A DNA stretch of 64,000 nucleotides, taken from contig NZ_LT629752.1 in assembly GCF_900105145.1 (NCBI RefSeq), positions 3,849,501-3,913,500 of the forward strand, read 5' to 3'. The position numbers and the translations under genes are program-made. The notes below the pieces were generated by a model, which had not been told where the DNA came from, searched no databases, and saw only the letters and a program-made list of their open reading frames with translations. Positions 35,233 to 53,424 of this stretch are shown piece after piece; position 1 is the first letter of the stretch; every line of letters begins with the position of its first letter. This stretch comes from Polaribacter sp. KT25b. Lineage in GTDB: Bacteria > Bacteroidota > Bacteroidia > Flavobacteriales > Flavobacteriaceae.

Positions 35233-35874
35233 TTATTCTACCGCTATTTTCTTTAAAACATTTTCTTCTTCTAGAGCAAATATTAACAAGTTTACATAAT
35301 CATTTACAGTTTCTTCTGTAGAAGAAGGATCAATAATATCTATAGAACCTTTCCACATTAACTCTCTTTCTTTTACAGGGCAAATGCAATACAAAGAAGT
35401 TTCTGCATGGTAAATATCAAACTTTTTATAGTAATCTGGATTGTAAAAAATTTCTTGATTTTTATAATAATCATCTTTAAACCTAATATCTAAATGCTCT
35501 TTGTTTTTAAATGTTTTTGTATAAACTGTTTTATTTTCTATTCCTTTAATTTTTGTAAATAAAATAGCATCAAAATAACTGGTTGCTAAAATTTTCTCAA
35601 CAATTCTTAACTCTTCTTTAGATTTTTTTTCGGCTGTAAATGTTGGCTCAAATAACTCTAAACTCATAACAGCTTCTATACCTCTTGATTCAAATTCTTT
35701 TTTTAGTTTTTGCTCAAATTCTTTTCTAGCTTCAATATTTGATGTCATACCAACAATTAATACTTTAGATATTACAAGTGAATCTATTGCAGGATTTTTC
35801 CAAACATCTACAAGTTCTGTTGTGCTGCAATTCATTAATAATAATGCCGATAGTAAAAAAAGAAAATTTTTCAT
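35233..35874 (-). CDS. Lipoprotein of unknown function
   Basis: 213 residues. Signal peptide with lipobox MNCS. VDVWKNPAIDSL and KVLIVGMTSNIEARKEFEQK are typical of small Bacteroidota lipoproteins that I have seen only under uninformative names. A charged middle section follows. It starts 12 bp after the 149-residue gene and should be transcribed with it from the regulated promoter at 36379-36421, so it belongs to the stress island. Confidence 0.7.
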   Translation of the reverse strand: MKNFLFLLSALLLMNCSTTELVDVWKNPAIDSLVISKVLIVGMTSNIEARKEFEQKLKKEFESRGIEAVMSLELFEPTFTAEKKSKEELRIVEKILATSYFDAILFTKIKGIENKTVYTKTFKNKEHLDIRFKDDYYKNQEIFYNPDYYKKFDIYHAETSLYCICPVKERELMWKGSIDIIDPSSTEETVNDYVNLLIFALEEENVLKKIAVE

Positions 35875-35886
35875 CTTGTGGTGATT

Positions 35887-36336
35887 TTATTCTACATCTA
35901 TGATTCTATTTTGCTTTTCTGATTTCTTAATTTTTTTTAGAATATCAAATAAACTTGACTTTAATGCTCTGTGTTCTTTTAAATGATTTTTAAATGAAAT
36001 TAAAAGGGCTTTATGCTCTTTTTTATATGCTGTTTCTTCTTTTGGTTGATCTATTCCATCAACTAAAATTTCCAGCTCATTTTCATGTTTTTTAATCAAT
36101 TTAATTAAGGTGTCATTTGTATTTTTAGACTTGCTAAAATTTTCAACAATTTCTTTACTTTTAGAGTATGCTTGAAAATCAATTAATTGAAGCGTATTCC
36201 ATTTTATTAGGTCTTCAAAAAATAAATATTCATCATTTAAAAACTCTAATTCTAAAAGCCATTCTTTAGAGTTATTGTGCATTTCTTCTGCACTTAACCA
36301 TTCAATATAGTTTGTATTTATAGGTGTTGTTTTCAT
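35887..36336 (-). CDS. Helical protein of the stress regulon, unknown function
   Basis: 149 residues, strongly charged and predicted helical throughout (EWLLELEFLNDEYLFFEDL near the N-terminus, a Lys/Glu-rich C-terminus). No signal peptide or membrane helix. Its layout resembles the 138-residue protein encoded at 36437, so the two may be distant paralogues. It heads a two-gene unit with the lipoprotein and has its own Crp/Fnr-type promoter. Function unknown. Confidence 0.7.
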   Translation of the reverse strand: MKTTPINTNYIEWLSAEEMHNNSKEWLLELEFLNDEYLFFEDLIKWNTLQLIDFQAYSKSKEIVENFSKSKNTNDTLIKLIKKHENELEILVDGIDQPKEETAYKKEHKALLISFKNHLKEHRALKSSLFDILKKIKKSEKQNRIIDVE

Positions 36337-36378
36337 AATTACAATTATAAAATTAAGATTATAAAAAAAGTTGTGCTA

Positions 36379-36421
36379 CTAAGTTATATTTAAAAATTAA
36401 AATATAAACTGATAATTATCA
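36379..36421 (-). promoter_or_regulatory. Class II Crp/Fnr-type promoter 1
   Basis: TGATAATTATCA (36410-36421, a perfect palindrome extending to CTGATAATTATCAG), then 23 bp, then the -7 element TAACTTAG (36379-36386, minus strand). It drives the gene starting at 36336. Confidence 0.82.
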
Positions 36422-36436
36422 GTTTGTTATAGGTTT

Positions 36437-36853
36437 TTAATTAATTATTACACTTTCTAGATATTGAAAAAACTGAATTTTAAATTTTGTGCATTTAATA
36501 AAGAAATTATGTGTTTTTTCTTCTAATTCATCATGCCTTTTAATAAAAAAATTATCACAAAATAAATCATCACATTCAATCTTATTTGAAATTGAGTTTG
36601 AGTGTAAATTAATTTCTATAAACAAGTCTGAAGCTTCATTTTCTGTTGCATTAATTTCTTTTTTAAATAGCTCTAAGTTTTCAAATAAATTAATTGCATT
36701 CGTTTTATAGATTGATGCTTCTATGAGGTTTTCATAGAATTTATATTCAATAAGCTCTTCTTCTATTTTTGTTTTAAATTGAAGCATATTGTACTTTAAT
36801 TCTTCAATAGATTTTTTTTCATTAAAACTTTTAAAAATATTTTTTGTTTCCAT
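36437..36853 (-). CDS. Helical protein of unknown function
   Basis: 138 residues, acidic and helical (IEELKYNMLQFKTKIEEELI, ENLIEASIYKTNAINLFENL). No signal peptide or membrane segment. It follows the beta-CASP nuclease gene by 15 bp and is the probable last gene of the unit that starts with the Usp at 40098. It shares size and style with the protein encoded at 35887. I cannot assign a function. Confidence 0.65.
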   Translation of the reverse strand: METKNIFKSFNEKKSIEELKYNMLQFKTKIEEELIEYKFYENLIEASIYKTNAINLFENLELFKKEINATENEASDLFIEINLHSNSISNKIECDDLFCDNFFIKRHDELEEKTHNFFIKCTKFKIQFFQYLESVIIN

Positions 36854-36868
36854 TTTGTTTGATGTTAA

Positions 36869-38242
36869 TTAAATTACAACTTCCTCAACACTATCTAGTT
36901 TAGGTATAGTTGCTTGCCAATTATAAGTGTCTTTTATTTTTACTCTAAAAGCATCTAAAGCAGTTGGTTCTCCATGAATTAAATACACTTTTTCTGGGAT
37001 GTTTTTAATGTTCTTCATCCAATTTAATAAATCTTGCTGATCGCCATGCGCAGACAAACTTTCTATGGTTTTAATCGTTGCTTTTACAGGATAATATTTA
37101 CCGTAAAAGCGAATTTCATGAGCACCTTCTAAAAGTTGTCTTCCACGAGTTGCTTCTGCTTGATAACCTACTAATAAAACAGTTGTAGAAGGCTCATCTA
37201 TCAATTGTTGCAAATACGTTAAAACTCTTCCTCCGGTTACCATTCCGCTTCCAGCAATTATAATTTTAGATCTTTTATTATCAATCGTTTCCCAAGTTTC
37301 TTTAAAAGATTGAACAATATTTATGTGATTACACATTGCATTATAGTCTTCAATTGGTAATTTATGCCAGGCTGGAAATCGTTTAAAAACTTCTAAAACT
37401 TTTTCTCCCATTGGGCTATCAACAAAAATTGGAATATTCGGAATCTTGTTTTCTTTGTATAATTTCCATAAAATGTACATCAATGTTTGCATACGTTCTA
37501 CGGCAAAACTCGGAATGATTAGATTTCCTTTGTTGTAAATTGTATCAATAATAATGTTTGCTAACTTTTGTTCTACATCTTCTTTTGGATGTAATTTATT
37601 ACCATAAGTGCATTCAATAAATAAGAAATCTGCCCATTCTGGCGTTTTCGGATTCTCTAAAAGATAATCATTGCTTCTGCCAATATCTCCAGAAAACACA
37701 AAACGTTTTCCGTGAATATCTAATTCTATAAAAGTTGCGCCAATAATATGACCATTATATTGAAAACGATATTTAATATTTTCTGATAAATCAATCCATT
37801 TATTTTCAACTTCTACTTTAAATAGATTTATAGTTTTTTCGGCATCTTCAACTGTGTAAAAAGGCAATGCAGGTTCGTGTTTAGAATAATGTTCTCTATT
37901 CGCTTTTTCTGCATCTTCTTCATTAATTTTAGCACTATCATTTAATATAATTTCTGCAATTGCTAATGTGGGTGCTGTACCAATAATTTTGCCTGTAAAA
38001 CCTTGTTTAACTAGTCTTGGTAAATAACCAACATGATCTAAATGACCATGCGTTAAAAGCACAACATCAATCTTTTTAACAGCTACAGGTAAATCTTTCC
38101 AGTTTAATTCTCTAAGTTCTTTTAAACCTTGAAACATACCACAATCTATCAATATGTTTTTTTCTGAAGTTTCAATCAAAAATTTTGAGCCTGTTACAAC
38201 TCCAGAAGCTCCTAAGAATTTTATTTTAGCAAAATGATCCAT
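36869..38242 (-). CDS. Metallo-beta-lactamase / beta-CASP ribonuclease-like protein
   Basis: 457 residues. The metallo-beta-lactamase motif is LTHGHLDHVGYLPRL (HxHxDH, ~63-68), with further ligands in YNGHIIGA and FSGDIGRS. The beta-CASP insert begins near ECTYGNKLH and includes IPSFAVERMQTLMYIL, then IIAGSGMVTGGRVLTYLQQ and SAHGDQQDLLNW. These resemble CPSF73/YSH1-type prokaryotic RNA nucleases. An RNA-processing enzyme inside a stress island with a hibernation factor suggests RNA remodelling under arrest; that role is inference. It is 3 bp from the ATP-cone gene. Confidence 0.85.
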   Translation of the reverse strand: MDHFAKIKFLGASGVVTGSKFLIETSEKNILIDCGMFQGLKELRELNWKDLPVAVKKIDVVLLTHGHLDHVGYLPRLVKQGFTGKIIGTAPTLAIAEIILNDSAKINEEDAEKANREHYSKHEPALPFYTVEDAEKTINLFKVEVENKWIDLSENIKYRFQYNGHIIGATFIELDIHGKRFVFSGDIGRSNDYLLENPKTPEWADFLFIECTYGNKLHPKEDVEQKLANIIIDTIYNKGNLIIPSFAVERMQTLMYILWKLYKENKIPNIPIFVDSPMGEKVLEVFKRFPAWHKLPIEDYNAMCNHINIVQSFKETWETIDNKRSKIIIAGSGMVTGGRVLTYLQQLIDEPSTTVLLVGYQAEATRGRQLLEGAHEIRFYGKYYPVKATIKTIESLSAHGDQQDLLNWMKNIKNIPEKVYLIHGEPTALDAFRVKIKDTYNWQATIPKLDSVEEVVI

Positions 38243-38245
38243 CGT

Positions 38246-39097
38246 TTAGTGATTTTTACTGTTACACAATTGCTTAAATTCATTTAGTATTTTATCTTTT
38301 CTGATGCTAGAAATACCTAAATGATCTAAGAAAAAAAAGTCTTCAATTAACTCTCTACATAAAACTACATTTCTATTTAATAGAAACTGTTTTTCTCTAT
38401 TTGTAAGTAATGTTGATACTGTTATTGGGTATAATCCTAAGCGATCTATTCTGTCTTTTAAACCATTTCCTTTAGGATAATCCCAACTTAATAAATACAA
38501 GCCACAACAGTTACCAAACTTTAAAGCATCTTCTGTAAACCTTGTATTTGTTACAACCCAACCTGCTGTTAGTTTATTTTGAATTTTACTGCTTTTATCC
38601 CAAAATGATTTAACATCTAAATAACGAGAGTTAATATATAACGGAACTTTTACATTACAATTAAAACCTTGTTCGCTGTGAAACTTACATTCTATAATTG
38701 TAGTTTCATTATTTTTATTTGCAGTAACATCTATTTCATGAGTAACGCATTTACCATTTAAAATTTGACCTACTTCTACATTGTAGCCAGAATGTTTTAA
38801 GATTGCTGCAACAAACCTTTCAAAAGGAAAACCAGTTGGACCTAATTCGTATATTGCTTTTTTTAATTTGTATTTAGAAGCTAAACAATTTTCCTGTTTT
38901 TTGAGTAATGAAAATGCTCTATCATAAATTTCTTTTGTAGAAATCCCTTCATATAATTCATCTTTAACTTTCTCTATAATTTGATTTATAACAACATCTT
39001 CTGCTCCAGTTTTTTTTAATGAATTGTAGAGCTTATTAGCAGAAAATTTTACTTTTTCTCCAGAATATTTTATGATGCTTATATCTTTATCGTTCAT
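38246..39097 (-). CDS. ATP-cone / Mrr-like restriction-endonuclease-fold protein
   Basis: 283 residues from MNDKDISI; an ATG 12 bp upstream is also open. Residues ~1-90 resemble an ATP-cone, the nucleotide-binding regulatory domain of ribonucleotide reductases and NrdR (KYSGEKVKFSANKLYNSLKK). Residues ~95-200 carry a PD-(D/E)xK nuclease pattern: FERFVAAILKHSGYNV, then HEIDV and IIECK. The combination suggests a nucleotide-sensing nuclease or DNA-binding protein. It follows a Usp gene and abuts the beta-CASP nuclease. The biological target is unknown. Confidence 0.75.
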   Translation of the reverse strand: MNDKDISIIKYSGEKVKFSANKLYNSLKKTGAEDVVINQIIEKVKDELYEGISTKEIYDRAFSLLKKQENCLASKYKLKKAIYELGPTGFPFERFVAAILKHSGYNVEVGQILNGKCVTHEIDVTANKNNETTIIECKFHSEQGFNCNVKVPLYINSRYLDVKSFWDKSSKIQNKLTAGWVVTNTRFTEDALKFGNCCGLYLLSWDYPKGNGLKDRIDRLGLYPITVSTLLTNREKQFLLNRNVVLCRELIEDFFFLDHLGISSIRKDKILNEFKQLCNSKNH

Positions 39098-39243
39098 ATT
39101 TAAAATCAAAAAATGAAACTAAATTAATTTGATTTAAAGAAATCTCTAATCTATTTTTTTGCTTGATAATTAGGTGTTATAACTGCTGTTTCAATTGTTC
39201 TAATTTACTTTCTAACTAAATTTTTTGTATTTTTTATCTTGTT

Positions 39244-40098
39244 TTAGTTTCTTAAATCGTGCATTACTAATATTGGAATATTAGAATGAAAGCCCATTTC
39301 TTTTACAAGAGGTTGTGTTAAAACACTACCAAAAAAATAATGCTTTTTATTAATAAATGCCACCATATTACTATCTCTACTTTCAATAAAAATATTTATT
39401 GCAGCTTCTACTGAGTTATATTTTAACTCATGAAATGAACAGGAAACATCTTCAAAAATTTCTGTAAGCAATTGCTTGTTTTCTATTTGATTATTAGTTA
39501 ATTTTTCTTCTTCAGAAACATGTAAGATTGCAATTTTAGCATCACATTTTATAGCTATTTCTATCAGATAAATTAACTCTCGTCTTTTATAATGTGTTTT
39601 ATAACTTGTTGGAAAAACAATTTCTTTTGGTAAGGTGTGGTTTGCTTTTTCTGGAACCACAATTACGGGGCAATTTCTAACCTTTTCCATAACATAAATT
39701 GCAGTTCTACCGTAAGCAATTTGTGTTGAATTTGTTTCTCCTTTTGTGCCCATTACAATCATTTCTATATCTTTCTGCTCCACAATATTTTTGATGGCTT
39801 CTAAAGGATAATTAAAAGTAGAAATGGTTTCAAAATGATGTTTTGGGTTTTTATAACCTTCAACATCTAAGACATCTAAAATTCGTACTAAACCTTGTTC
39901 AGATTTTGCTTTTGAAAGTTCGTATAATTCGCTTCCAGGTTCAAAGTTTATTAGAATGTCATAAACATTTTGTGTTGCAGTAAATACATTTAAAAAGTAA
40001 AAAACACATTCATCATTTTTAAATAATTTTAGAGCATACTCTATAGCATTCCAAGAATTTTTAGAGAAATCTGTTGGTAATAATATTTTACGTTTCAT
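39244..40098 (-). CDS. Universal stress protein, tandem domain (Usp-1)
   Basis: 284 residues, two Usp domains. The first begins KILLPTDFSKNSWNAIEYAL and contains GTKGETNSTQIAYGRT, a variant of the ATP-binding G-x2-G-x9-G(S/T), with Arg in place of Ser/Thr. The second domain lacks an obvious nucleotide motif. Usp proteins support survival in arrest and low energy. The gene has its own Crp/Fnr-type promoter and probably leads a unit running through the ATP-cone, beta-CASP and 138-residue genes. Confidence 0.88.
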   Translation of the reverse strand: MKRKILLPTDFSKNSWNAIEYALKLFKNDECVFYFLNVFTATQNVYDILINFEPGSELYELSKAKSEQGLVRILDVLDVEGYKNPKHHFETISTFNYPLEAIKNIVEQKDIEMIVMGTKGETNSTQIAYGRTAIYVMEKVRNCPVIVVPEKANHTLPKEIVFPTSYKTHYKRRELIYLIEIAIKCDAKIAILHVSEEEKLTNNQIENKQLLTEIFEDVSCSFHELKYNSVEAAINIFIESRDSNMVAFINKKHYFFGSVLTQPLVKEMGFHSNIPILVMHDLRN

Positions 40099-40124: not shown

Positions 40125-40167
40125 TAATTATAATTAATAATCTAAAAATATAAAATGATCTAAGTCA
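40125..40167 (-). promoter_or_regulatory. Class II Crp/Fnr-type promoter 2
   Basis: TGATCTAAGTCA (40156-40167 on the plus strand; palindromic core) lies 23 bp from the -7 element TATAATTA (40125-40132, minus strand). This is the weakest -7 of the set. It drives the Usp at 40098. Confidence 0.7.
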
Positions 40168-40169
40168 AC

Positions 40170-41021
40170 TTAGTCCTTTTTTGTATTTGAAGGAATTACC
40201 AAAAAAGGAACATTTAAATGAAAACCGATTTCTTTAATTTTTGATTTAAAAAATAAGTTTTCGAAAAAAGAATGCTTATTATTAATCATCACCAACAAAT
40301 TAACGCGTGTTTTTTGTTGAAATTCAGAAATAGCTTCTGTTACATTTTGATCAGGTACGCTATGAAATACGTGAGAAATAGTATTGAATAACGTATTTAG
40401 TTTTTGTTTATTTTTTTCTTGTTTTTCAGATAAATCATAACCATAAGACACATTTAAAACATGAACTTTTGAAGTTTGAGAAAGAGCAATATCTACAATT
40501 GGTTTTACTTGTTTTTTCTTAAAAGAAATTTCATAATCAGATGGAAATAAGATTTCTTTTGGAGCTTCAAAACTAAAACCACTAGGTATTGCTAATACTG
40601 GGCATTTTGCCTTTTTAATTACATGCACTGTATTTGAACCAAATAAAACTTCATCTAAACCAGTTGCACCTTTTGTACCCATTACAATATAATCCATTGG
40701 TTTGGCTTCAGAAAGTTCTTGAATTTCGAAGGTTAAGGTGTTAAATGAAGAAATTTGAATAAATTTATGATCAGAATTCACATATTTTTTTTCAATTTTC
40801 TTTTGAAGTTTACTAACACCCTTTTCTGATGCTTCTCTCATTGCATCAATTAAACCAAAACTTGCAGCACCTACATTCATGTATTCTACATCATAAATTA
40901 TGGGTGTATACGTGTTTAGTAAAAAGAAATTACATTTTTCATCTTTAAACAATTCAACTGCATATTGAATTGCATTCCAAGAATTATCAGAAAAATCGGT
41001 AGGTAAAAGTATATTTTTCAT
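40170..41021 (-). CDS. Universal stress protein, tandem domain (Usp-2)
   Basis: 283 residues. First domain NILLPTDFSDNSWNAIQYAV with an intact nucleotide motif GTKGATGLDEVLFGSNT. The second domain is degenerate but ends in the sequence shared by the four paralogues (NNKHSFFENLFFKS, FHLNVPFLVIP). It follows Usp-3 by 18 bp and has no promoter box of its own, so it is the second gene of that unit. Confidence 0.9.
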   Translation of the reverse strand: MKNILLPTDFSDNSWNAIQYAVELFKDEKCNFFLLNTYTPIIYDVEYMNVGAASFGLIDAMREASEKGVSKLQKKIEKKYVNSDHKFIQISSFNTLTFEIQELSEAKPMDYIVMGTKGATGLDEVLFGSNTVHVIKKAKCPVLAIPSGFSFEAPKEILFPSDYEISFKKKQVKPIVDIALSQTSKVHVLNVSYGYDLSEKQEKNKQKLNTLFNTISHVFHSVPDQNVTEAISEFQQKTRVNLLVMINNKHSFFENLFFKSKIKEIGFHLNVPFLVIPSNTKKD

Positions 41022-41039: not shown

Positions 41040-41888
41040 TTAAGTACGTCTCATGTTTTGTAATGCTAAAAAAGGAATCTTTATTGATAAACTTATTTTA
41101 TCAATATTATCTTTAAAAAGTATGTTTTCTAAAAAAGAATGTCTTCTATTTATCATAACTAAAATATCTGTTTCATAATCTTCTATGTACTTATTAATTT
41201 CGTTCGAGATATTTTTATCTTTTGTTATTTTAAAATGAATTTTTGTGTTTTTTAAGTTTTCTTTAATAAAAGATTTGTAGCCTTCTTGCCTAACAGATAA
41301 AGAGCCACTGTCTGATATATAAAGTATATCGATTGTTGATTTATAATCAGAAGCTACTTCATTTAAAAGCGCTAATTCTCTTTGTTGATAAGGCATGCTG
41401 TAATCTGTAGCAAAAAGAATATGATTGGGCTTTTTATAAGTATAACCTTGAGGAATTACTAAAACAGGACATCTAACATATTTTAAAACTTGTAGTGTGT
41501 GGCTTCCAAACGTTAGTTTTTTATTATTTGTTTTGCCCAGAGTTCCCATAACAATGAGATCTATGTTTTTTTCTTCTACAACTCTATCTGCCTCATCAAC
41601 AAGAATGTTATTGGCAGATAGAATTTTAAATAGATGTTTAGAGTTTTGGGAAAGCTTTTTAATTTGCTTTAGCGTATTTTTTAGTTGTAATTGAGAGTCT
41701 TTACCTGCAGTTCTAATAACCTCATTAATTACTTCTTTAGTAATAGGCGCATTGCTTAAATTAATATCTTCTTGATATGCATTTAAAATATAAAACTTAC
41801 AAAACTCATGTTTAAACAACGCTAAAGCATAGTTGATAGCATTTATTGAGTTTTTAGAAAAATCGATAGGAATTAATATCTTTTTCAT
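41040..41888 (-). CDS. Universal stress protein, tandem domain (Usp-3)
   Basis: 282 residues. First domain KILIPIDFSKNSINAINYAL with GTLGKTNNKKLTFGSHT, an intact G-x2-G-x9-GS motif. The second domain is degenerate with NRRHSFLENILFKD. It is more diverged than the other three. It heads the Usp-3/Usp-2 unit behind the promoter at 41912-41954. Confidence 0.9.
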   Translation of the reverse strand: MKKILIPIDFSKNSINAINYALALFKHEFCKFYILNAYQEDINLSNAPITKEVINEVIRTAGKDSQLQLKNTLKQIKKLSQNSKHLFKILSANNILVDEADRVVEEKNIDLIVMGTLGKTNNKKLTFGSHTLQVLKYVRCPVLVIPQGYTYKKPNHILFATDYSMPYQQRELALLNEVASDYKSTIDILYISDSGSLSVRQEGYKSFIKENLKNTKIHFKITKDKNISNEINKYIEDYETDILVMINRRHSFLENILFKDNIDKISLSIKIPFLALQNMRRT

Positions 41889-41911: not shown

Positions 41912-41954
41912 TAAATTTATACCTATTTTTGCACTAAGACAATGATCTACATCA
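41912..41954 (-). promoter_or_regulatory. Class II Crp/Fnr-type promoter 3
   Basis: TGATCTACATCA (41943-41954 on the plus strand) sits 23 bp from the -7 element TAAATTTA (41912-41919, minus strand). It drives Usp-3 and Usp-2. Confidence 0.83.
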
Positions 41955-41998: not shown

Positions 41999-42301
41999 TT
42001 ACAAATAAGGTTTTGCTATTCCTTTTCTCTTTTTTAATTGAATTTCTAAGTCAGAAATTGTGTTTTTTACAGCAAGTTCATAATTTTTTTCATCAGAAGA
42101 AGCAAACAATCTTGGTCCAGGAGCGCTTAATTCTATTTCGCAAATCGTTCCTTTATCTTTAGAGTTTTTTTCTTTTTTAAAAACTACGTTTGCACTAATA
42201 ATTTTCTCAAACTTTTTAACCAAACTATCTAACTTTTTAATAGTATAAGCTTCCATAGTTTCACTTGTTGTCATGTTAATGAATTGAATGTTTACGTTCA
42301 T
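41999..42301 (-). CDS. hpf: Ribosome hibernation-promoting factor, short form (HPF/RaiA/YfiA)
   Basis: 100 residues with the HPF fold: VNIQFINMTTSETMEAY (for the usual xHxxxT start), KLDSLVKKFEKI, then CEIELSAPGPRLFASS and AVKNTISDLEIQLKKRKG. Short HPFs bind the 30S decoding centre and help form inactive ribosome dimers when growth stops. It lies 26 bp after the 128-residue membrane-protein gene, so it should be expressed from the Usp-4 promoter. A hibernation factor among Usps strongly suggests a growth-arrest programme. Confidence 0.88.
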   Translation of the reverse strand: MNVNIQFINMTTSETMEAYTIKKLDSLVKKFEKIISANVVFKKEKNSKDKGTICEIELSAPGPRLFASSDEKNYELAVKNTISDLEIQLKKRKGIAKPYL

Positions 42302-46067: not shown

Positions 46068-46090
46068 CTCATATTCATAAATTCTTGATT

Positions 46091-46504
46091 ATGAAACCAT
46101 CACAAAACACAATTATTTCTTTTTACGAAAACCTTGGTAAATTATTTTATGCAATTGCAGCAGCAGATAATGTTGTAGAGGATGTTGAGTTTAATGTTTT
46201 AAAAGAAACTGTAAAAAATAAATGGACTAAAATTGATCATATTGATGATGATTTTCATTCTGATGCAGCATATCAAATTGAAACCGTTTTCGATTGGTTA
46301 AATAACGAAGGTTTTTCTGATTCTAAAACTTGTTATAACGAGTTTATTGACTTTAAAAGAGAGCATCCTTCTTTATTTACAGAAGAAACTAAAAGTCTTA
46401 TTATACAAACAGCAACTAAAATTGCAGCATCAGTTGCAGATTTAAATAAATCGGAATTAATGTTGGTTGCAAAACTTAGTATCGAATTTAAGAAAACGGA
46501 TTGA
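46091..46504 (+). CDS. TerB-like helical protein
   Basis: 137 residues from MKPSQNTI; an upstream TTG is open but unlikely. LFYAIAAADNVVEDVEF near the N-terminus and a C-terminal helical pair ending LMLVAKLSIEFK resemble TerB-fold proteins, where acidic residues bind metal in tellurite-resistance and related stress proteins. The match is by pattern only. It is a single-gene unit behind promoter 5, divergent from the sensor kinase. Confidence 0.6.
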   Translation: MKPSQNTIISFYENLGKLFYAIAAADNVVEDVEFNVLKETVKNKWTKIDHIDDDFHSDAAYQIETVFDWLNNEGFSDSKTCYNEFIDFKREHPSLFTEETKSLIIQTATKIAASVADLNKSELMLVAKLSIEFKKTD

Positions 46505-46670: not shown

Positions 46671-46713
46671 TGATGAAGGTCATTTTACTTTTTTTAAAAC
46701 TGTAATACCTTTA
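46671..46713 (+). promoter_or_regulatory. Class II Crp/Fnr-type promoter 6
   Basis: TGATGAAGGTCA (46671-46682), 23 bp, then TACCTTTA (46706-46713). It drives the WG-repeat and ABC-exporter unit starting at 46740. Confidence 0.82.
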
Positions 46714-46739
46714 TTTACTGAATTTTAAATTTTTTGATC

Positions 46740-47333
46740 ATGAAAAAAGCAATCATATTATTTTTCTTAATTCCGTTTTTAGGATTTTCTCAAATCACAG
46801 ATAAGTTAGATTATGTTTCTCCTTTTAATGAAGGCTATTCTGCAGTAAAAAAAGGAAATCAATGGGCATTTATCAATCAAAAAGGAAACATTGTTATCGA
46901 TTTTAGAGACGATTTAGTTTTAACAGAAACTAACAAAGAAAAGTATCCAATATTTGTAAATGAAAGATGTTTAATTTCAGAAAAAAAAGACGGGATTTCT
47001 TACTTCGGATTTATAGATACATCAGGAAAAACAGTAGTTGAACCTTTGTATTTAAATGCTGCAAATTTTAATGAAGAATTTGCAATTGTAATTCATGTTT
47101 ATAAAAATTTATTAGGCAAAGATGTGTTAAACAAACAAGTAGTAAGTTATGAAATTACAGAGATTTTAATTAATAAATCTGGTGAAGTTAAATTCTCTTT
47201 AACGGAACCAAAAGGTATTATTCTTTCTAAAGAATATATTAAAAATCCACCAAAAATAAATAGTAAGTTTCTAACTAAAAATTTAATTGCAGTTTTAGGA
47301 AAAGATAATAAATGGGAGCTTAAAAAATTATAA
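46740..47333 (+). CDS. WG-repeat protein, exported
   Basis: 197 residues from MKKAIILF. Signal peptide ending LGFSQ. It carries WG-type repeats: VSPFNEGYSAVKKGNQWAFI with NQKGNIVIDF, then YFGFIDTSGKTVVEPLY, then LGKDNKWELKK. WG repeats are binding modules of unclear ligand. It is the first gene of a unit that continues with an adaptor, a permease and an ATPase, so it may be the periplasmic partner of that system. Confidence 0.8.
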   Translation: MKKAIILFFLIPFLGFSQITDKLDYVSPFNEGYSAVKKGNQWAFINQKGNIVIDFRDDLVLTETNKEKYPIFVNERCLISEKKDGISYFGFIDTSGKTVVEPLYLNAANFNEEFAIVIHVYKNLLGKDVLNKQVVSYEITEILINKSGEVKFSLTEPKGIILSKEYIKNPPKINSKFLTKNLIAVLGKDNKWELKKL

Positions 47334-47347: not shown

Positions 47348-48427
47348 ATGAAAAGAATAAGCGTAATTTGTTTCCTTTTTTTTTGTATTTCTTGTGCTGA
47401 AAAAGAAGAAAAAACGGTTCCAGAAAGTAGAAATATGACCGAATCTGTGTATTCTTCTGTAACGATTCAGCCAGACAGTTTATACCAAGTTTACGCTTCT
47501 GTGGCTGGGATTTTAGAAAAAAACTTAGTAGAAGAAGGCGATTTGGTTTTTAAAGAAACACCGTTAATTAAGGTGGTAAATAATATGCCTAAATTAAATA
47601 CCGAAAACGCCAAACTTATGGTAGGTTTAGCAAAAGAAAACTATACAGGAAGTGCTGCTATTTTAGATGGAATTGAAGAAGAAATTATTGCTGCAAATCT
47701 TACCTATAAAAACGATTCAATTAATTTTTATCGACAAAAAAATCTTTGGAATCAGAAAATTGGTTCTAAAGTAGCATTTGAAACAAAAAAGTTAAATTTT
47801 GAGTTATCTAAAAATAGTTTACAACTTTTAGAAAGTAAATATAACAGAACAAAAAACGAATTAAAAACAGCCTTAAAACAAGCTCAAAACAATTATGAAT
47901 CTTCATTAATAAACACCAAAGATTTTACTGTAAAAAGTATTATAAATGGTAAAGTTTATGCGCTATTTAAAGAACCAGGAGAAATTGTTTCTACAACAGA
48001 ACCTCTAGCCAAAATTGGTAGCGCAACTAATTTTGTGATAGAATTGTTGGTTGATGAAGTTGATATTGTAAAAATATCAGAAAATCAAGAAGTAATTATA
48101 AATTTAGACGCTTATAGTGGTCAAATTTTTACAGGAAAAGTATCTAAAATTTATCCTATAAAAGACACAAGAAATCAAACTTTTAAGGTTGAAGCTTTGT
48201 TTGACAAAGTTCCGAAAACATTGTATCCAGGGCTTTCTGGCGAAGCAAATATTATCATTTCTAAAAAAGATGCTGTACTTACAATTCCTAAAGACTATCT
48301 AATTGATGCTGATAAAGTAAAAACAGATAATGGCATTGTAAAAATTACAACAGGTTTACAAAACATGGAATTTGTAGAGGTAATTTCTGGAATTTCTAAA
48401 AACACAATAATTTATAAACCAGAATAA
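47348..48427 (+). CDS. HlyD-type periplasmic adaptor lipoprotein
   Basis: 359 residues. Lipobox CISC. The membrane-fusion-protein layout is biotinyl-lipoyl half (YQVYASVAGILEKNLVEEGD), a helical hairpin (~80-190) and a second lipoyl half with ALFKEPGEIVSTTEPLAKIG, then a beta-barrel domain with YPGLSGEANIII. It links an inner-membrane transporter to the outer membrane. The stop (TAATGG) overlaps the start of the permease gene. No outer-membrane TolC-like gene lies in the unit. Confidence 0.88.
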   Translation: MKRISVICFLFFCISCAEKEEKTVPESRNMTESVYSSVTIQPDSLYQVYASVAGILEKNLVEEGDLVFKETPLIKVVNNMPKLNTENAKLMVGLAKENYTGSAAILDGIEEEIIAANLTYKNDSINFYRQKNLWNQKIGSKVAFETKKLNFELSKNSLQLLESKYNRTKNELKTALKQAQNNYESSLINTKDFTVKSIINGKVYALFKEPGEIVSTTEPLAKIGSATNFVIELLVDEVDIVKISENQEVIINLDAYSGQIFTGKVSKIYPIKDTRNQTFKVEALFDKVPKTLYPGLSGEANIIISKKDAVLTIPKDYLIDADKVKTDNGIVKITTGLQNMEFVEVISGISKNTIIYKPE

Positions 48428-49689
48428 TGGTTAATTGGAAAGTTCTTTTAAACATTGCAAAAAAGCATTTGCTAACAAAGTTTAAGCAAACTGCTGTTGC
48501 AGCTTTAGGCGTTACTTTTGGTATTACATCTTATATTACTTTGGCTAGTTTTATGACGGGTTTAAACAATGTATTAGATGATTTAATTCTAAACCAAACA
48601 CCACATATTCATGTTTATAATGAAATTGAACCCTCTAAGCAACAACCCATTTCTTTGTATGATGATTTTAAAAATAGCTTTAATGTTGTACATTCTATTA
48701 AGCCAAAATTAAATCAGAAAAAAATACATAACGCATTGCCCATTATTAAGTATTTAAATGACAATAAAGATGTTAAAGGAGCAATTTCGCAAATAAAAAC
48801 AAATATTTTTTACATTTCTGGTTCAATAGAACTTGTTGGGAATTTAACAGGAATAAATCCGATAGAAGAAGCACGGCTTTTTAATTTTAAAGATTATGTA
48901 ATAGAAGGTTCTCCAAAAGATTTAAAAAACACAGAAAATAGTATCATAATTGGCTCTGGAGTTGCAAAAAAAATGTCTTTATCAATAGGAGAAAGAGTTC
49001 AAATAAGTACTGTAAATGGAACTGTTTTTCCGCTTAAAATTGTTGGTATTTATCAAAGTGGAGTTTCTGATATTGATGCTATTCAAAGCTTTACTAATAT
49101 TAAAACAGTTCAAACTATTTTAGGAGAAGCTAAAAACTATATTACAGATATAAATATAAAATTATATGACATTGATAAAGCCTTACCATTGGCAAAAAAA
49201 ATTGAACAACAATTTAATTTAAATGCAATAGATATTAATACTGCAAATGCACAATTTGAAACAGGTAGTTCTATTAGAAACCTTATAACGTATGTGGTTT
49301 CTATTACTTTATTAGTTGTAGCTGGTTTTGGAATTTATAACATTCTAAACATGTTAATTTATGAAAAAATGAATGACATTGCTATTTTAAAAGCAATCGG
49401 TTTTTCTGGTAAAGATGTACAGATAATCTTTATGAGTGAGGCATTAATTATCGGAATTGTTGGTGGTGTTTTGGGTTTGCTTTTTGGATTGCTTTTTACG
49501 AATATTATTAATACGATTCCGTATGAAACAGAAGGATTACCTAGAATAAAAACATATCCAATAGATTTTAACCTGTGGTATTATGTAATAGGTTTAACTT
49601 TTGCAATCATTTCTACTTGTTTTGCAGGTTTTTTACCTTCTCAAAAAGCTAAAAAAATAGATCCAGTTAAAATTATAAGAGGCCAATAA
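48427..49689 (+). CDS. MacB/LolC-type ABC permease
   Basis: 420 residues. Helix 1 at ~20-42 (AVAALGVTFGITSYITLASF), a large periplasmic domain (~45-275), then three helices in the FtsX domain (YVVSITLLVVAGFGIYNILN, IIGIVGGVLGLLFGLLFTNI, YYVIGLTFAIISTCFAGFLP). The coupling segment MNDIAILKAIGFSGKDV is typical. Members either export substrates or extract lipoproteins. The adaptor next to it favours MacAB-like export. Confidence 0.88.
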   Translation: MVNWKVLLNIAKKHLLTKFKQTAVAALGVTFGITSYITLASFMTGLNNVLDDLILNQTPHIHVYNEIEPSKQQPISLYDDFKNSFNVVHSIKPKLNQKKIHNALPIIKYLNDNKDVKGAISQIKTNIFYISGSIELVGNLTGINPIEEARLFNFKDYVIEGSPKDLKNTENSIIIGSGVAKKMSLSIGERVQISTVNGTVFPLKIVGIYQSGVSDIDAIQSFTNIKTVQTILGEAKNYITDINIKLYDIDKALPLAKKIEQQFNLNAIDINTANAQFETGSSIRNLITYVVSITLLVVAGFGIYNILNMLIYEKMNDIAILKAIGFSGKDVQIIFMSEALIIGIVGGVLGLLFGLLFTNIINTIPYETEGLPRIKTYPIDFNLWYYVIGLTFAIISTCFAGFLPSQKAKKIDPVKIIRGQ

Positions 49690-49690
49690 A

Positions 49691-50365
49691 ATGAGTACAG
49701 TATTAGAAGCAAAATATATTAATAAGTATTTTAAAAAGCCTGTATCTTTTCATGTATTAAAAGATATTAATTTTAAAATTGATAAAGGAGAATTTACTTC
49801 AATTATGGGGAAATCTGGTTGCGGAAAATCTACTTTATTGTACATTTTATCTACTATGGATACAGATTATGAAGGCGAATTGTATTTAGATAATCAATTA
49901 ATTACGGGCGATAGTAAAGACAAATTATCATATATCAGAAATAAAAATATAGGTTTTGTTTTTCAATTTCATTATTTGTTGTCAGAATTTTCTGTGTTAG
50001 AAAATGTAATGCTTCCTGCTAAAAAATTAGGAGAAAAATCTGTTAAAGAAATAGAAAATGATGCAATTCAGAAATTAAAAATATTAAATATAGAGCATTT
50101 AGCTAAAAAAAAAGCATCACAAATTTCTGGTGGAGAAAAACAAAGAGTGGCAATTGCAAGAGCTTTAATAAACAACCCTTCTATAATTATGGGAGATGAA
50201 CCAACAGGAAATTTAGATAGTCATAACTCAGAAAATGTTTTTAATATTTTTAAAAAATTAAGTTTAGAAGAAAAACTATCTCTTTTAATAGTTACTCATG
50301 ATGAAGATTTTGCAAAAAAAACAGACAGAATTATTACAATGGAAGATGGGAAAATAATTACCTAA
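49691..50365 (+). CDS. ABC transporter ATPase (MacB/LolD type)
   Basis: 224 residues. Walker A GKSGCGKSTL, Q-loop FVFQFHYLLSEFS, signature ISGGEKQRVAIARAL, Walker B IIMGDEPTGNLDS and switch VTHDEDF. It starts 1 bp after the permease stop and completes the exporter. The Q-loop Phe-His form is typical of the MacB/LolD subfamily. Confidence 0.92.
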   Translation: MSTVLEAKYINKYFKKPVSFHVLKDINFKIDKGEFTSIMGKSGCGKSTLLYILSTMDTDYEGELYLDNQLITGDSKDKLSYIRNKNIGFVFQFHYLLSEFSVLENVMLPAKKLGEKSVKEIENDAIQKLKILNIEHLAKKKASQISGGEKQRVAIARALINNPSIIMGDEPTGNLDSHNSENVFNIFKKLSLEEKLSLLIVTHDEDFAKKTDRIITMEDGKIIT

Positions 50366-50378
50366 AATAATAGCAAAC

Positions 50379-50421
50379 TGATAATTCTCATTTTATATAC
50401 AATCTAATTATACTACTTTTA
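50379..50421 (+). promoter_or_regulatory. Class II Crp/Fnr-type promoter 7
   Basis: TGATAATTCTCA (50379-50390), 23 bp, then TACTTTTA (50414-50421). It drives cbpA, cbpM and the metallophosphoesterase gene. Confidence 0.8.
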
Positions 50422-50453
50422 GTATTGTTCTTTAATCATAAAAAATAAGGAAA

Positions 50454-51341
50454 ATGGCATTCGTAGATTATTATAAAATATTAGGCATTTCCAAAAGTGC
50501 TTCTGAAGCAGATATTAAAAAAGCTTACAGAAAATTGGCTAGAAAATATCATCCAGATTTAAATCCGAATGATAAAGCAGCCGAAAAAAAGTTTAAAGAA
50601 ATTAATGAAGCTAATGAAGTTTTAAGTAATCCAGAAAATCGTAAGAAATACGATAAATATGGAGAACATTGGGAAAATGGAGAAGCTTACGAACAACAAG
50701 AAAAACAACGTCAACAAGATTATCAAAGAAGATCTCAAAGTAGTCAAGGAAGTTATTCTCAAGAAGATTTTTCTGATATTTTTGGAGATATGTTTGGTGG
50801 TGGAGCTTCTGGTAGACGAACGAGTTCAAAATTTAGAGGACAAGATTACAATTCTGAAATTCAATTACATTTAAAAGATGTTTATAAGACTCAAAAACAG
50901 GTAATTACCGTTAATGGAAAAAATATCAGAATTACAATTCCTGCAGGTGTAGAAAACGGCCAAACCATCAAAATAAAAGGTCATGGAGGAAAAGGTGTAA
51001 ATGGAGGCCCAAATGGCGATTTATACATTCAGTTTTCTATTATAAATAACACCAAATTTAAACGTGATAAAGACAATCTTTATATAGATGTTGATTTAGA
51101 TTTATATACGGCTTTATTAGGTGGGCAAATTATGGTTGATACTTTTGATGGAAAAGTAAAATTGACCATTAAACCAGAAACCGAAAATGGTACCAAAGTT
51201 AAACTAAAAGGAAAAGGATTTCCTAAATACAAAAAAGAAGGTCAGTTTGGTGATTTATATATTACGTATCAACTTAAAATACCTACAAAATTAAACGAAA
51301 AAGAGAAAGAATTAATTAAAGAATTACAAAAACAACGCTAA
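50454..51341 (+). CDS. cbpA: DnaJ-class co-chaperone CbpA
   Basis: 295 residues. J domain ~4-70 with [10 protein letters not shown] (HPD motif), a Gly/Ser/Gln-rich linker (~75-125) and two C-terminal substrate-binding domains (~130-290, [19 protein letters not shown]). It has no zinc-finger domain, which separates it from DnaJ. It works with DnaK and is typically induced in stationary phase. The CbpM modulator follows 2 bp later. Confidence 0.92.
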
Positions 51342-51343
51342 AT

Positions 51344-51640
51344 ATGGAAACTGAAAATTTAATATCTATACAGCAATTTTGTGAGCATTATAGCATTCCA
51401 AAAACTTTTATGAATGATTTAAAAGAGTACGAATTAATAGAAATTATTGTTGCAGAAAATGATGATTACATTAAAATTACTCAAATTACAGAAGTTGAAA
51501 AAATGATTCGTTTGCATTATGATTTAAACATAAATTTAGAAGGTGTTGATGTAATTTACAATTTATTAAATCAAGTTGATACTTTAAAAAAAGAAGTAAC
51601 TGATTTACAAAATAAACTTCGTTTTTACGATAACGTATAA
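51344..51640 (+). CDS. cbpM: Chaperone modulator CbpM
   Basis: 98 residues. N-terminal MerR-like helix-turn-helix fold (ISIQQFCEHYSIPKTFMNDL), then MIRLHYDLNINLEGVDVIYNLL and a short coiled coil (LLNQVDTLKKEVTDLQNKL). CbpM binds the J domain of CbpA and inhibits it. Its position directly after cbpA confirms the call. Confidence 0.9.
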   Translation: METENLISIQQFCEHYSIPKTFMNDLKEYELIEIIVAENDDYIKITQITEVEKMIRLHYDLNINLEGVDVIYNLLNQVDTLKKEVTDLQNKLRFYDNV

Positions 51641-51666
51641 AGTACCAGAAAACTAAATATTTTCTA

Positions 51667-52884
51667 ATGAAAAGCTACTCTCTATTTACCATTTTGCTTT
51701 TATGTTTAGCAATTTTAATCGTAGATATTTTAGCTTTTTATTGGTTGCAATCTATAACACAAATCATTGCTTCGGATGGTTTAAAAACTGCAATAAATAT
51801 TGTTTTTTGGGGTTTTACAATAGGATTAATTGCTTCAATTATAACGCTGAAAATTACTTTAGAAGATATTGAACCTAAAAGAAAACACAAGCTAGTTTCA
51901 GCTTTATCAGGATTAACAATTTCTTCTTTTATTCCTAAAATTATTTTTGTTGTTATTTTCTCTCTAATGTATTTTTCTAATCAGTTTTTTTCTGAAACGG
52001 AATCATTAATTGTTGTTCCGTTATTTGGTTTGCTTTCTGGATTTTTGCCATTTTTTGTAATAATGTATGGTTTTTTTAAAGCTGTATATAAATTTAAAGT
52101 GCATCATGTTACTGTTAAACATCAAAAATTACCTGCATCTTTTAATGGTTTAAAAATTGTTCAAATTTCTGATATTCATTTAGGAAGTTTTAATTATAAA
52201 TATCACATTTTAGACAGAGCAATAAAAGTAATAAATGATGCTGAACCAGATTTTATTTTTTTTACTGGAGATTTAGTTAATAATTATGCTTGGGAATTAA
52301 TTGGTTGGGAAAAGGTTTTAGACAAATTAGTTGCTAAAAAAGGCAAATATGCCATTTTAGGAAATCATGATTATGGAGATTATAGCGAATGGAATTCAAA
52401 GGAAGAAAAAAAAGAGAATTTTGATAAAATAAAAACTTTTTTTAAAAGAATTGATTTTAAACTCTTGTTAAATCAATCAGAAATAATTGAAAAGAACAAT
52501 GAAAAAATTGCAATTATTGGCGTCGAAAATTGGGGAAAACCTCGTTTTAAACAATATGGAAATCTACAAAAAGCAGTAAAAAATGTTACTGAAATTCCGT
52601 TTAAAATATTGTTAACACACGATCCAACACATTGGAGCAAAGAAGTACTTAAAAAAACAGATATTGCTTTAACGCTTTCTGGTCATACGCATGGAATGCA
52701 ATTGGGTTTTCAATACAAAAAAAGGCAATGGAGCCCAAGTAAATATCAATACAAACATTGGGCTGGTTTGTATAATGAAAACGAAAAATATTTATATGTT
52801 AATCGTGGTTTAGGTTGGGTTGGCTTTCCTGGTAGATTGGGTATGAGACCAGAAATTACATTACTTGAGTTAAAGAAGAAATAA
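51667..52884 (+). CDS. Membrane-anchored metallophosphoesterase
   Basis: 405 residues. Four hydrophobic segments in the first ~140 residues, then a calcineurin-like domain: IVQISDIHLGSFN (DxH), FTGDLVNNYAW (GDxxxN), ILGNHDYGDY (GNHD), LLTHDPTHW and LSGHTHGMQLG (GHTH). Homologues of the YaeI/YkuE type are thought to act on lipids or nucleotides at the membrane. It probably follows cbpM in the same unit. The substrate is unknown. Confidence 0.85.
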   Translation: MKSYSLFTILLLCLAILIVDILAFYWLQSITQIIASDGLKTAINIVFWGFTIGLIASIITLKITLEDIEPKRKHKLVSALSGLTISSFIPKIIFVVIFSLMYFSNQFFSETESLIVVPLFGLLSGFLPFFVIMYGFFKAVYKFKVHHVTVKHQKLPASFNGLKIVQISDIHLGSFNYKYHILDRAIKVINDAEPDFIFFTGDLVNNYAWELIGWEKVLDKLVAKKGKYAILGNHDYGDYSEWNSKEEKKENFDKIKTFFKRIDFKLLLNQSEIIEKNNEKIAIIGVENWGKPRFKQYGNLQKAVKNVTEIPFKILLTHDPTHWSKEVLKKTDIALTLSGHTHGMQLGFQYKKRQWSPSKYQYKHWAGLYNENEKYLYVNRGLGWVGFPGRLGMRPEITLLELKKK

Positions 52885-52896
52885 ATTTTTGTAAAC

Positions 52897-52939
52897 TGAT
52901 GTATATCAGCTTTTTTCTTTAAAATTTCAAATACCTTAG
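52897..52939 (+). promoter_or_regulatory. Class II Crp/Fnr-type promoter 8
   Basis: TGATGTATATCA (52897-52908; CTGATgtatATCAG), 23 bp, then TACCTTAG (52932-52939). It drives the PNPOx-like gene at 52966. Confidence 0.82.
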
Positions 52940-52965
52940 CTTTTCCATTACCTAAAACTTGCGTT

Positions 52966-53424
52966 ATGATTACTAATTTAAAAGAAGAAGAGTGCAGTCA
53001 CCTATTAGCAAATAATTATATTGGTCAACTGGCCTATATTTATAAAGATCGACCTTTTGTAGTGCCAATTACTTATTTTTTTAATAAAAATAATATTATT
53101 ATTGGTTATTCTGATGAAGGGCATAAAACGATGGCTATGAGAAAAAATAATAAAATTTCTCTACAAGTTTCAAACATAATAGATTGTGATAATTGGATTT
53201 CTGTTCTAGCTCATGGAGTTTATGAAGAGGTTACAGGCTCTGAAGCAAAAAAATATTTACATGAATTTACATCAGGAATTAAAGACATAATCTTAAGAAA
53301 AGAAGATAGATGTTTGCGTTCTGTAGGTGATTTTTCTAGCAAAAAATATACAAATCATCCGCCAATTATTTTTAGAGTAACTGTTGATGAAATGACAGGA
53401 AAAAGAAGGGTTCATCATTCATAA
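52966..53424 (+). CDS. Pyridoxamine 5'-phosphate oxidase-like flavin-binding protein
   Basis: 152 residues of the split-barrel fold: NNYIGQLAYIYKDRPFVVPI, IIIGYSDEGHKTMAMRKNN and a conserved WISVLAHGVYEEV. This is the stand-alone PNPOx-like group that often binds FMN, F420 or heme, and it is common in hypoxia-induced regulons. The C-terminus is VDEMTGKRR. It is a single-gene unit behind promoter 8 and the last member of the island, followed by a strong terminator. Confidence 0.85.
   Translation: MITNLKEEECSHLLANNYIGQLAYIYKDRPFVVPITYFFNKNNIIIGYSDEGHKTMAMRKNNKISLQVSNIIDCDNWISVLAHGVYEEVTGSEAKKYLHEFTSGIKDIILRKEDRCLRSVGDFSSKKYTNHPPIIFRVTVDEMTGKRRVHHS

Follow-up and report, generated by a model that had tools for sequence, protein, structure and literature searches.

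The window, a stretch of 64,000 nucleotides of Polaribacter sp. KT25b DNA, carries between positions 35233 and 53424 an island that has at its middle a histidine kinase gene and, overlapping it by 4 bp, the gene of a REC-Crp response regulator. This kinase and regulator pair recurs in many related bacteria. The genes are as follows.

36869..38242, minus strand: MBL-fold beta-CASP ribonuclease-type protein
38246..39109, minus strand: ATP-cone and Mrr-type nuclease domain protein
39244..40098, minus strand: universal stress protein (Usp)
40170..41021, minus strand: universal stress protein
41040..41888, minus strand: universal stress protein
41999..42301, minus strand: HPF-type ribosome hibernation factor (Ribosomal_S30AE)
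42726..43568, minus strand: universal stress protein
43657..44715, minus strand: REC-Crp response regulator (Response_reg, cNMP_binding and HTH_Crp_2) with recognition helix ATETLIR
44712..45953, minus strand: histidine kinase with one FixL-type PAS (H64 and R84)
46085..46504, plus strand: unknown protein, recurrent in relatives' islands
46734..47333, plus strand: WG-repeat protein
47348..50365, plus strand: HlyD, FtsX/MacB-type permease and ABC ATPase
50454..51640, plus strand: CbpA-type DnaJ chaperone and a CbpM-like MerR_2 protein
52966..53424, plus strand: PNPOx-like protein (Pyridox_ox_2)

Eight 12-bp palindromes named in the sequence-only reading were all found in the island.

36410..36421, minus strand: box TGATAATTATCA, 23 bp to TAACTTAG; the gene at 35887-36336 (function unknown) lies 73 bp away
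40156..40167, minus strand: box TGACTTAGATCA, 23 bp to the weak TATAATTA; head of the Usp gene at 39244-40098
41943..41954, minus strand: box TGATGTAGATCA, 23 bp to TAAATTTA; head of the unit of Usp 41040 and Usp 40170
43622..43633, minus strand: box TGACCAATATCA, 23 bp to TAAATTTG; head of Usp 42726, membrane protein 42328 and HPF 41999
46025..46036, plus strand: box TGATTAATATCA, 23 bp to TATTTTTA; head of the unknown gene 46085 (ATG 46091)
46671..46682, plus strand: box TGATGAAGGTCA, 23 bp to TACCTTTA; head of the WG-repeat and exporter genes
50379..50390, plus strand: box TGATAATTCTCA, 23 bp to TACTTTTA; head of the CbpA- and CbpM-like genes
52897..52908, plus strand: box TGATGTATATCA, 23 bp to TACCTTAG; head of the PNPOx-like gene

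On both strands of the island, TGATnnnnnTCA has 11 matches; the eight boxes are intergenic, and the remaining three (46246, 49074 and 50059) fall within genes. Because the boxes at 40156 and 43622 start with TGAC in gene direction, TGA[CT]N4[AG]TCA is the better consensus, from which the box at 50379 deviates on one side. The fixed distance of 23 bp holds for all eight boxes and leads in each case to a TA-starting element of the Bacteroidetes -7 type, which reads TAnnTTT at five boxes (41943, 43622, 46025, 46671 and 50379), TAnnTTAG at two (36410 and 52897) and, at its weakest, merely TAnnATTA (40156). Start codons lie 53-63 bp from the box end in seven of eight cases, with the ATGs at 46091 and 46740 used (54-64 bp in the sequence-only reading, which counted by another convention), and 73 bp away for 36410. 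As that reading also held, no phased box was found upstream of the island's kinase or regulator. The box centre stands 29.5 nt ahead of the TA of the -7 element, which equals the class II geometry of E. coli CRP and FNR (-41.5 to -12); the island differs in its -7 element and in a putative activator that has a receiver. The distance to the -7 element fits the class II placement that had been proposed for these Crp/Fnr-type boxes, with the box centre predicted at about -41.5.

A genome scan, suggested earlier as a check, put the box-N23-TAnnTTT pattern above chance, with 64 sites in the own genome versus 11 for the reversed pattern. For the exact N23-TAnnTTTG pattern (strict sites) the counts were 27 versus 0, and for N22-24-TAnnTTTG 31 versus 4. 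Across 199 genomes of the family, TGAN6TCA-N23-TAnnTTTG occurred 1676 times and its reversal 173 times. Within 40 relatives' loci, drawn from 37 genomes, a spacing of 23 was found in 69 cases, and every other spacing from 5 to 45 in 0-3 each. In the 207-site profile, the letters of the -7 element are partly set by site selection. A sigma-70 scan performed no better than shuffles (119 vs 118.7). The bare 12-mer is weakly enriched in the window (23 occurrences vs 12.1 on average in shuffles, of which 2 in 100 had as many), but a chance alignment in a region of 28.7% GC was rejected as wildly improbable in view of the spacing peak and the low reversed-pattern controls.

Several operon-head genes keep their box in related flavobacteria. 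In 80 named loci, where frames with the earliest start codon upstream of the box were scored as misses, a box lies ahead of Usp42 in 75/84 cases, the 46085-type gene in 39/47, WG in 12/15 and Usp41 in 28/37; rates were lower, which counts against the proposed regulon, for CbpA (4/25), 35887 (3/20), Usp40 (20/75) and PNPOx (7/17), and no box was found ahead of ATP-cone (0/20), MBL (0/18) or CbpM (0/24) genes. Autoregulation of the pair was rejected, a phased box being present upstream of none of 80 regulators and of five of 78 kinases.

The PAS domain of the kinase aligned to FixL (1d06) without gaps, and H64 and R84 match the heme histidine and arginine; FixL-type PAS domains have a proximal heme His and an oxygen-contacting Arg. 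Both residues are invariant across 30 aligned kinases. The PAS alone had 17 PDB sequence matches, the best 13 of which are FixL or DosP-type heme PAS entries, including one titled only yddU, which is presumably DosP. By residue criteria the domain is FixL-type, and heme binding and oxygen control are predicted, in line with the low-oxygen theme first proposed. A structure model of the kinase (mean pLDDT 76, pTM 0.40) led in Foldseek to PAS-kinase folds, including 4gcz, an engineered LOV-FixL chimera, and was uninformative on heme.

Some relatives of the kinase carry a LOV motif. Among 80 kinases (79 named loci and the window; L280 yielded no kinase, and L254, with 626 aa and no motif, was scored as LOV-less), the motif is present in 13, of which eight have lost the heme signature and five keep the pair; of the 67 LOV-less kinases, window included, 63 keep the pair and four have lost it. 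In a first kinase set, which shares some genomes with the named set and excludes L149 because its reading frame begins at LOV, R84 is kept in 0/7 LOV kinases and the pair in 32/33 others (window included). A tie between LOV insertion and heme loss, near absolute in the first set and weaker in the named one, is suggestive; tested on the tree, where 3 pairs support it, the link lacks significance. The signal might be nitric oxide, redox or, in the LOV relatives, light instead of oxygen, as heme PAS domains can bind NO and CO and as the heme signature was lost in 8/13 LOV kinases versus 4/67 without the motif. We consider this unlikely for the island, whose kinase lacks the LOV motif and has retained H64 and R84, and several targets elsewhere are of low-oxygen type; the tree result also speaks against it.

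The regulator belongs to the Crp/Fnr superfamily (PF00027 and PF13545 above cut-off), and its receiver (PF00072), with D52 in 41/41 regulators, and the adjacent kinase mark it as a two-component response regulator. E318 and R322 of the recognition helix are invariant in the 41 regulators, and E-x3-R helices of this kind read TGA/TCA. A conserved Fe-S cysteine cluster is absent, as only C51 (40/41) and C190 (27/41) are conserved in at least half of the sequences; the regulator is therefore not FNR proper. Of the 199 genomes, classed by hand from identities with a few best hits near 46% ambiguous, 83 have the regulator and 15 a paralogue, and four (paralogue-only or receiver-only) were set aside. 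In the 143 genomes retained once these four were removed and minima of 95% completeness and 2.0 Mb applied, mean strict sites were 1.92 with neither regulator nor FNR (13 genomes), 7.75 with FNR alone (53), 10.0 with REC-Crp alone (32) and 14.1 with both (45), and the reversed control averaged 0.54-1.19 per genome across the four classes. An RpoB tree covered 100 of the 143 genomes, hand-picked among the RpoB matches listed, so that it includes only 7 of the 13 that lack both regulators. On this tree, where the regulator state changes 29 times or more, the regulator effect on strict sites was +6.07 +/- 1.00 (p 2.5e-8, ML lambda 0) and +6.30 (p 3.2e-9) at lambda 1. On the other side, independent pairs (n=15) gave 5.7 in the same direction, 0.7 opposite and 8.5 without difference (median p 0.07). 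In four genomes (G198, G090, G098 and G101), no Crp-family protein above the Pfam cut-off other than REC-Crp has an E-x3-R helix, and the boxes at their regulator loci number 8, 6, 2 and 4, respectively; against the link, G098 has 2 strict sites versus 3 controls.

The boxes could instead be of the common FNR kind, with the FNR encoded at 2119708 as their main reader and REC-Crp modulating or serving another role. This FNR has an ATESAIR helix and Cys 4, 7, 29 and 106, conserved in 9 or 10 of 10 sequences; a few kb from its gene, two N23 boxes precede a gene that by eye resembles ccoN. The 7.75 sites of FNR-only genomes also fit, as do the boxes of regulator-less relatives: among 11 that carry MBL and FNR genes and lack both the regulator and its paralogue, five keep N23 boxes beside MBL (G162 5, G182 5, G008 3, G107 2 and G066, 80% complete, 1), G142 has one box at spacing 22, and five have none; G001, which has only the paralogue, shows four. 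However, the FNR effect, on which any sharing of the boxes by FNR depends, is +3.36 (p 0.0016) at lambda 0 and fails at lambda 1 (+1.17, p 0.34; independent pairs 2.0 same, 2.7 opposite), whereas the regulator effect is bigger and holds, and boxes persist in genomes without FNR, among them G198, G101 and G090 at their regulator loci. We regard FNR as an improbable main reader. In 8 of the 40 relatives' loci fnr follows kinase, regulator and Usp in that order; in a ninth (L145) it lies elsewhere.

A second REC-Crp (2731150-2732220), accompanied by a 929-aa multi-PAS kinase and bearing the same E-x3-R residues, may control part of the island, chiefly box 40156. Sites of the form TGAYYYRRRTCA-N23-TAnnTTTG are concentrated in the 15 paralogue genomes (33, against 47 in the other 184; reversed, 3 overall), 23 of the 33 lie less than 36 kb from the paralogue by hand count, and box 40156 matches the YYYRRR core of these sites. 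However, this core fits one of eight island boxes, the one with the weakest -7 element, and the paralogue is present in only 12 of the 83 regulator-bearing genomes as classed by hand; we regard such control as improbable.

The island's own REC-Crp regulator is a likely reader of its boxes, as the tree regression and the four genomes with no other E-x3-R protein suggest. The view that it activates all eight stands to that extent, with other regulators probably sharing them; a reading with this regulator alone was discarded, since some relatives that lack it still have boxes. Nor did the claim of a self-contained regulon hold: just 1 of the 27 strict sites lies in the island, FNR and the second REC-Crp of the same genome have the same recognition residues, and the boxes beside MBL persist in 5/11 regulator-less relatives.

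We propose that the kinase (44712-45953) senses oxygen through its heme PAS and, as oxygen falls, would phosphorylate Asp52 of the regulator (43657-44715), a receiver joined to a Crp/Fnr core. Since the regulator has no conserved Fe-S cysteine cluster, phosphorylation would replace the cofactor signal of FNR. The active dimer would bind TGAY-N4-RTCA boxes centred 29.5 nt before the -7 TA and recruit RNA polymerase at the class II position. Predicted targets are the Usps, HPF, the CbpA-type chaperone, the beta-CASP nuclease operon, the exporter, the PNPOx-like protein and chromosomal sites elsewhere. Probable further readers of these boxes are FNR and, in part, the second REC-Crp; with the sites elsewhere, this would make the island a dense cluster of a wider low-oxygen regulon. 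To this overall reading, a FixL-like kinase driving a REC-FixK/FNR-type regulator within a shared regulon, we assign a probability of about 0.68 from sequence evidence.

In DosRST of Mycobacterium, low-oxygen kinases, which sense through heme GAF domains, control Usps and dormancy-type genes. The suggested analogy to DosR, built from different parts, is apt in function only, Usps and a low-oxygen kinase (predicted for the island) being common to both; DosR is a NarL-family regulator, whereas the island output is Crp-type, and the island is not a DosR regulon. Rhizobia have FixL-FixJ-FixK and hFixL-FxkR-FixK, plus FnrN as a second sensor on the same anaerobox, according to PMC7888657. Shared are a FixL-type kinase and an FNR-type box and, as predicted for the island, oxygen sensing by that kinase, low-oxygen activation and a second sensor on the box, but in the island the receiver sits directly on a FixK/FNR-type DNA-binding core, which does away with the FixJ/FxkR step; the predicted targets include stress and hibernation genes, and the -7 element is of the Bacteroidetes type. 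As the output is Crp-type instead of a NarL/FixJ HTH, the system would act like FixL-FixJ-FixK without being a FixLJ member. The low-oxygen lxa locus of Burkholderia cenocepacia resembles the island in that it brings together six Usps, a member of the MBL superfamily and a heat-shock protein; in the excerpt of PMC6127331 it has FixLJ homologues elsewhere and, unlike the island, no embedded heme kinase/REC-Crp pair. NmpRSTU of Myxococcus xanthus, as outlined in PMC11841059, has a heme-based kinase controlling a hypoxic regulon (cbb3 oxidase and hemN), with an NtrC-like regulator and a protoglobin sensor instead. No report of a REC-Crp regulator in Bacteroidetes appeared, by title and abstract, among the matches listed in the literature searched; an earlier domain-architecture listing is possible.

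More tentatively, Flavobacteriaceae may have replaced the FixL-FixJ-FixK cascade of three proteins by a switch of two, FixL plus REC-FixK, that would feed phosphorylation straight into an FNR box network, in which one phase-locked code would serve two or three regulators responding to different signals (phosphorylation, Fe-S); in some lineages the oxygen PAS might have decayed and a LOV insertion in the same kinase shifted the regulon toward blue light, which would be nature's equivalent of the chimera 4gcz. Low-oxygen and dormancy control seems poorly mapped in Bacteroidota, a major marine and gut phylum, and the finding supplies a candidate kinase, regulator, box and promoter geometry for it, with the class II distance maintained despite a different -7 element. 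It would add a Crp-type solution to the recurrent pairing of heme kinase and Usp regulon, and genomes that carry one of the regulators, both or none offer a natural test ground for how a single box becomes shared between regulators.

The predicted Crp/Fnr-type 12-bp palindromes (boxes) of the 35233..53424 island were all found where the sequence-only reading had placed them (36410, 40156, 41943, 43622, 46025, 46671, 50379 and 52897), each 23 bp from a TA-starting element in the direction of the gene. This element fits TAnnTTT in 5/8 cases, reads TAnnTTAG in two and is weak after 40156. The near-constant distance to the start codon was borne out for seven boxes (53-63 bp; 73 bp for 36410). Three extra 12-mer matches in the island region all lie inside genes.

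Island features (genes named by start coordinate; putative transcription units are runs of consecutive genes, with the grouping inferred from gaps)
43657..44715 (-): REC-Crp response regulator (the regulator)
44712..45953 (-): kinase with one FixL-type PAS
Putative unit: Usp42726, 42328, HPF
Putative unit: Usp41040, Usp40170
Putative unit: Usp39244, then ATP-cone, MBL (beta-CASP) and 36437 genes
Putative unit: 35887, 35233
Putative unit: 46085 alone
Putative unit: WG, HlyD, FtsX, ABC
Putative unit: CbpA, CbpM, metallophosphoesterase
Putative unit: PNPOx alone

Four genes (35887-36336, 36437-36853, 42328-42714 and 46085-46504) recur in relatives' islands and have no over-cut-off Pfam and no NCBIfam match. 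The MBL protein (36869-38242), whose gene accompanies the ATP-cone/Mrr gene in many relatives, best matched the NCBIfam type VII Cas14 nuclease model at 400 bits (cut-off 800), and is therefore a relative rather than a member.

The genome-wide scan proposed in the sequence-only reading revealed a clear excess in the organism's own genome: 27 strict sites (TGAN6TCA-N23-TAnnTTTG) versus 0 with the reversed pattern, 31 versus 4 for the N22-24 form and 64 versus 11 for a looser form. Summed over 199 family genomes, the counts were 1676 and 173. Across the 20 kb surrounding the regulator at 40 loci of relatives, TAnnTTTG lay 23 bp from the box in 69 cases, versus at most three at any other spacing from 5 to 45 bp and one at 23 bp from the reversed box. 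The profile of 207 looser sites was TGA[TC]nnWTRTCAT, the -7 letters being partly set by how sites were selected. The box centre lies 29.5 nt from the TA of the -7 element, which is the class II distance in E. coli.

The boxes were also conserved in relatives, as the sequence-only reading had proposed to check, recurring before several island genes among 80 named loci.

Genes with a box within 250 bp upstream (80 named loci)
Usp42 (42726): 75/84
46085 gene: 39/47
WG: 12/15
Usp41 (41040): 28/37
HPF: 5/10
PNPOx: 7/17
Usp39 (39244): 13/30
Usp40 (40170): 20/75
CbpA: 4/25
35887: 3/20
42328: 2/18
36437: 1/10
Kinase: 5/78

At the same loci and distance, no box was found before the regulator (0/80), ATP-cone (0/20), MBL (0/18), 35233 (0/13), HlyD (0/12), FtsX (0/12), ABC (0/18), CbpM (0/24), metallophosphoesterase (0/3) or FNR (0/8) genes; some gene-wise misses are false because ORF starts were set mechanically. 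Other ORFs of at least 150 aa had an upstream box in 52/678 cases, and the reversed control gave 0. The nearest named relatives of the regulator are from Polaribacter (83-84% identity), whose 21-kb loci retain kinase, regulator, box and Usp with fewer island genes.

Elsewhere on the chromosome, strict sites precede genes encoding malate dehydrogenase, Fe-alcohol dehydrogenase, Hsp20, an AAA_26/DRTGG (Pta-like N-terminal) protein and a copper oxidase of nitrite-reductase look. The ClpB gene has a strict site 242 bp away, its box also lying within another frame, and the PEPCK gene has a looser site upstream. Genes resembling ccoN, SQR, thioredoxin, patatin and ferritin (named by eye) also have strict or looser sites upstream. 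The survey covered 60 loci, with each of two overlapping searches contributing 30, so that many sites appear twice; 34 further places from the looser search lay outside it. At least 13/30 looser loci lie within long ORFs and probably reflect chance.

The regulator comprises Response_reg, cNMP_binding and HTH_Crp_2 domains, with D52, E318 and R322 invariant in 41 sequences; an FNR-like cysteine cluster was not found in it. The single kinase PAS, searched alone, gave 17 PDB sequence matches, the best 13 being FixL or DosP-type heme sensors, including one entry titled yddU, another name for DosP. It aligned without gaps to 1d06, H64 and R84 falling on the FixL histidine and arginine, residues with heme roles. 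Both were invariant in 30 aligned kinases (the island kinase and 29 others chosen among 48 comparable in length) and kept by 63/67 LOV-less kinases of the named set, the island kinase included.

A LOV motif was found within some relatives' kinases, and in the named set the heme pair was lost in 8/13 LOV kinases versus 4/67 others. The LOV motif may be tied to heme-pair loss, a lead only, because the tree offers just three independent supported pairs. In eight kinases adjoining the regulator (L132, L133, L136, L137, L142, L144, L146 and L149), the LOV motif (NCRFL) is accompanied by additional PAS domains; the heme Arg is gone in all seven with a readable first PAS, and the His also in two.

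Six HTH_Crp_2 proteins were detected in the own genome at E 1e-3, three of which have an E-x3-R helix in common: the regulator (ATETLIR), a second REC-Crp (ATETAIR, 2731150) and FNR (ATESAIR, 2119708). Within a few kb of FNR is a gene that resembles ccoN (named by eye) and has two N23 boxes upstream. Mean sites per genome were 1.92 with neither regulator nor FNR (n=13), 7.75 with FNR alone (n=53), 10.0 with the regulator alone (n=32) and 14.1 with both (n=45), versus 0.54-1.19 for the reversed control across the four classes. In phylogenetic regression on an RpoB tree of 100 genomes (ML lambda = 0), the regulator added 6.07 +/- 1.00 sites (p 2.5e-8) and FNR 3.36 (p 0.0016); at lambda 1, the effects were +6.30 (p 3.2e-9) and +1.17 (p 0.34). 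This tree requires a minimum of 29 changes in regulator state, so the regulator effect does not stem from one clade. Independent pairs, which were few, gave 5.7 same and 0.7 opposite of 15 for the regulator (median p 0.07), and 2.0 same and 2.7 opposite of 11 for FNR. The regulator is the strongest correlate of the sites.

Among over-cut-off Crp proteins of eight regulator-bearing, FNR-less genomes, none besides the regulator had the E-x3-R helix in G198, G090, G098 and G101, and another with this helix (VETVIR) was found in G078, G156, G054 and G027. Among 11 loci that have the MBL gene and lack the regulator, five kept N23 boxes (G008, 3; G162, 5; G182, 5; G107, 2; G066, 1); G142 had one box at spacing 22, and no boxes were found in G155, G169, G012, G030 and G172. 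This persistence and the helix common to three proteins contradict the proposal of a self-contained regulon. The box set is real and conserved but not self-contained, and the box probably serves more than one reader.

The boxes associated with the second REC-Crp (2731150-2732220) have the promoter phase of the island boxes and a different core. Boxes TGAYYYRRRTCA in 23-bp phase numbered 33 in 15 genomes with this paralogue versus 47 in the other 184, and 23/33 lay within 36 kb of it by hand count. This second island (L068, G000:C1:2725000-2744999, and L069) encodes a 929-aa multi-PAS kinase with the second REC-Crp. Its boxes, built on a YYYRRR core and in the same phase, occur close to genes for Usp, Dps-, ferritin- and BON-like proteins, these neighbours being named by eye.

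Regulator matches were found in 87/199 family genomes at 1e-30 and in 60/395 phylum genomes at 1e-40, four of these 60 over the receiver only. Eight of 40 relatives' loci have the order kinase, regulator, Usp, fnr. Seven of them have the box upstream of Usp, and L128 has it upstream of fnr; this arrangement would agree with a model in which the kinase primes FNR. The reduced unit (kinase, regulator, one Usp, FNR) was seen at L117, L119, L120, L122, L124, L127, L128 and L139, and G110, G061 and G121 have it together with another copy that looks more like the island (L138, L149 and L146).

In gene content, the island resembles the Burkholderia lxa locus (PMC6127331). For control, the nearest working analogue is the rhizobial hFixL-FxkR-FixK and FnrN network, which acts on one anaerobox and whose hFixL-FxkR-FixK middle step is fused away in the Polaribacter island (PMC7888657 for rhizobia). 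The kinase and regulator would sense oxygen, pass on phosphate, bind the boxes and activate the genes; the control of the island would be a new form of FixL/FNR control.
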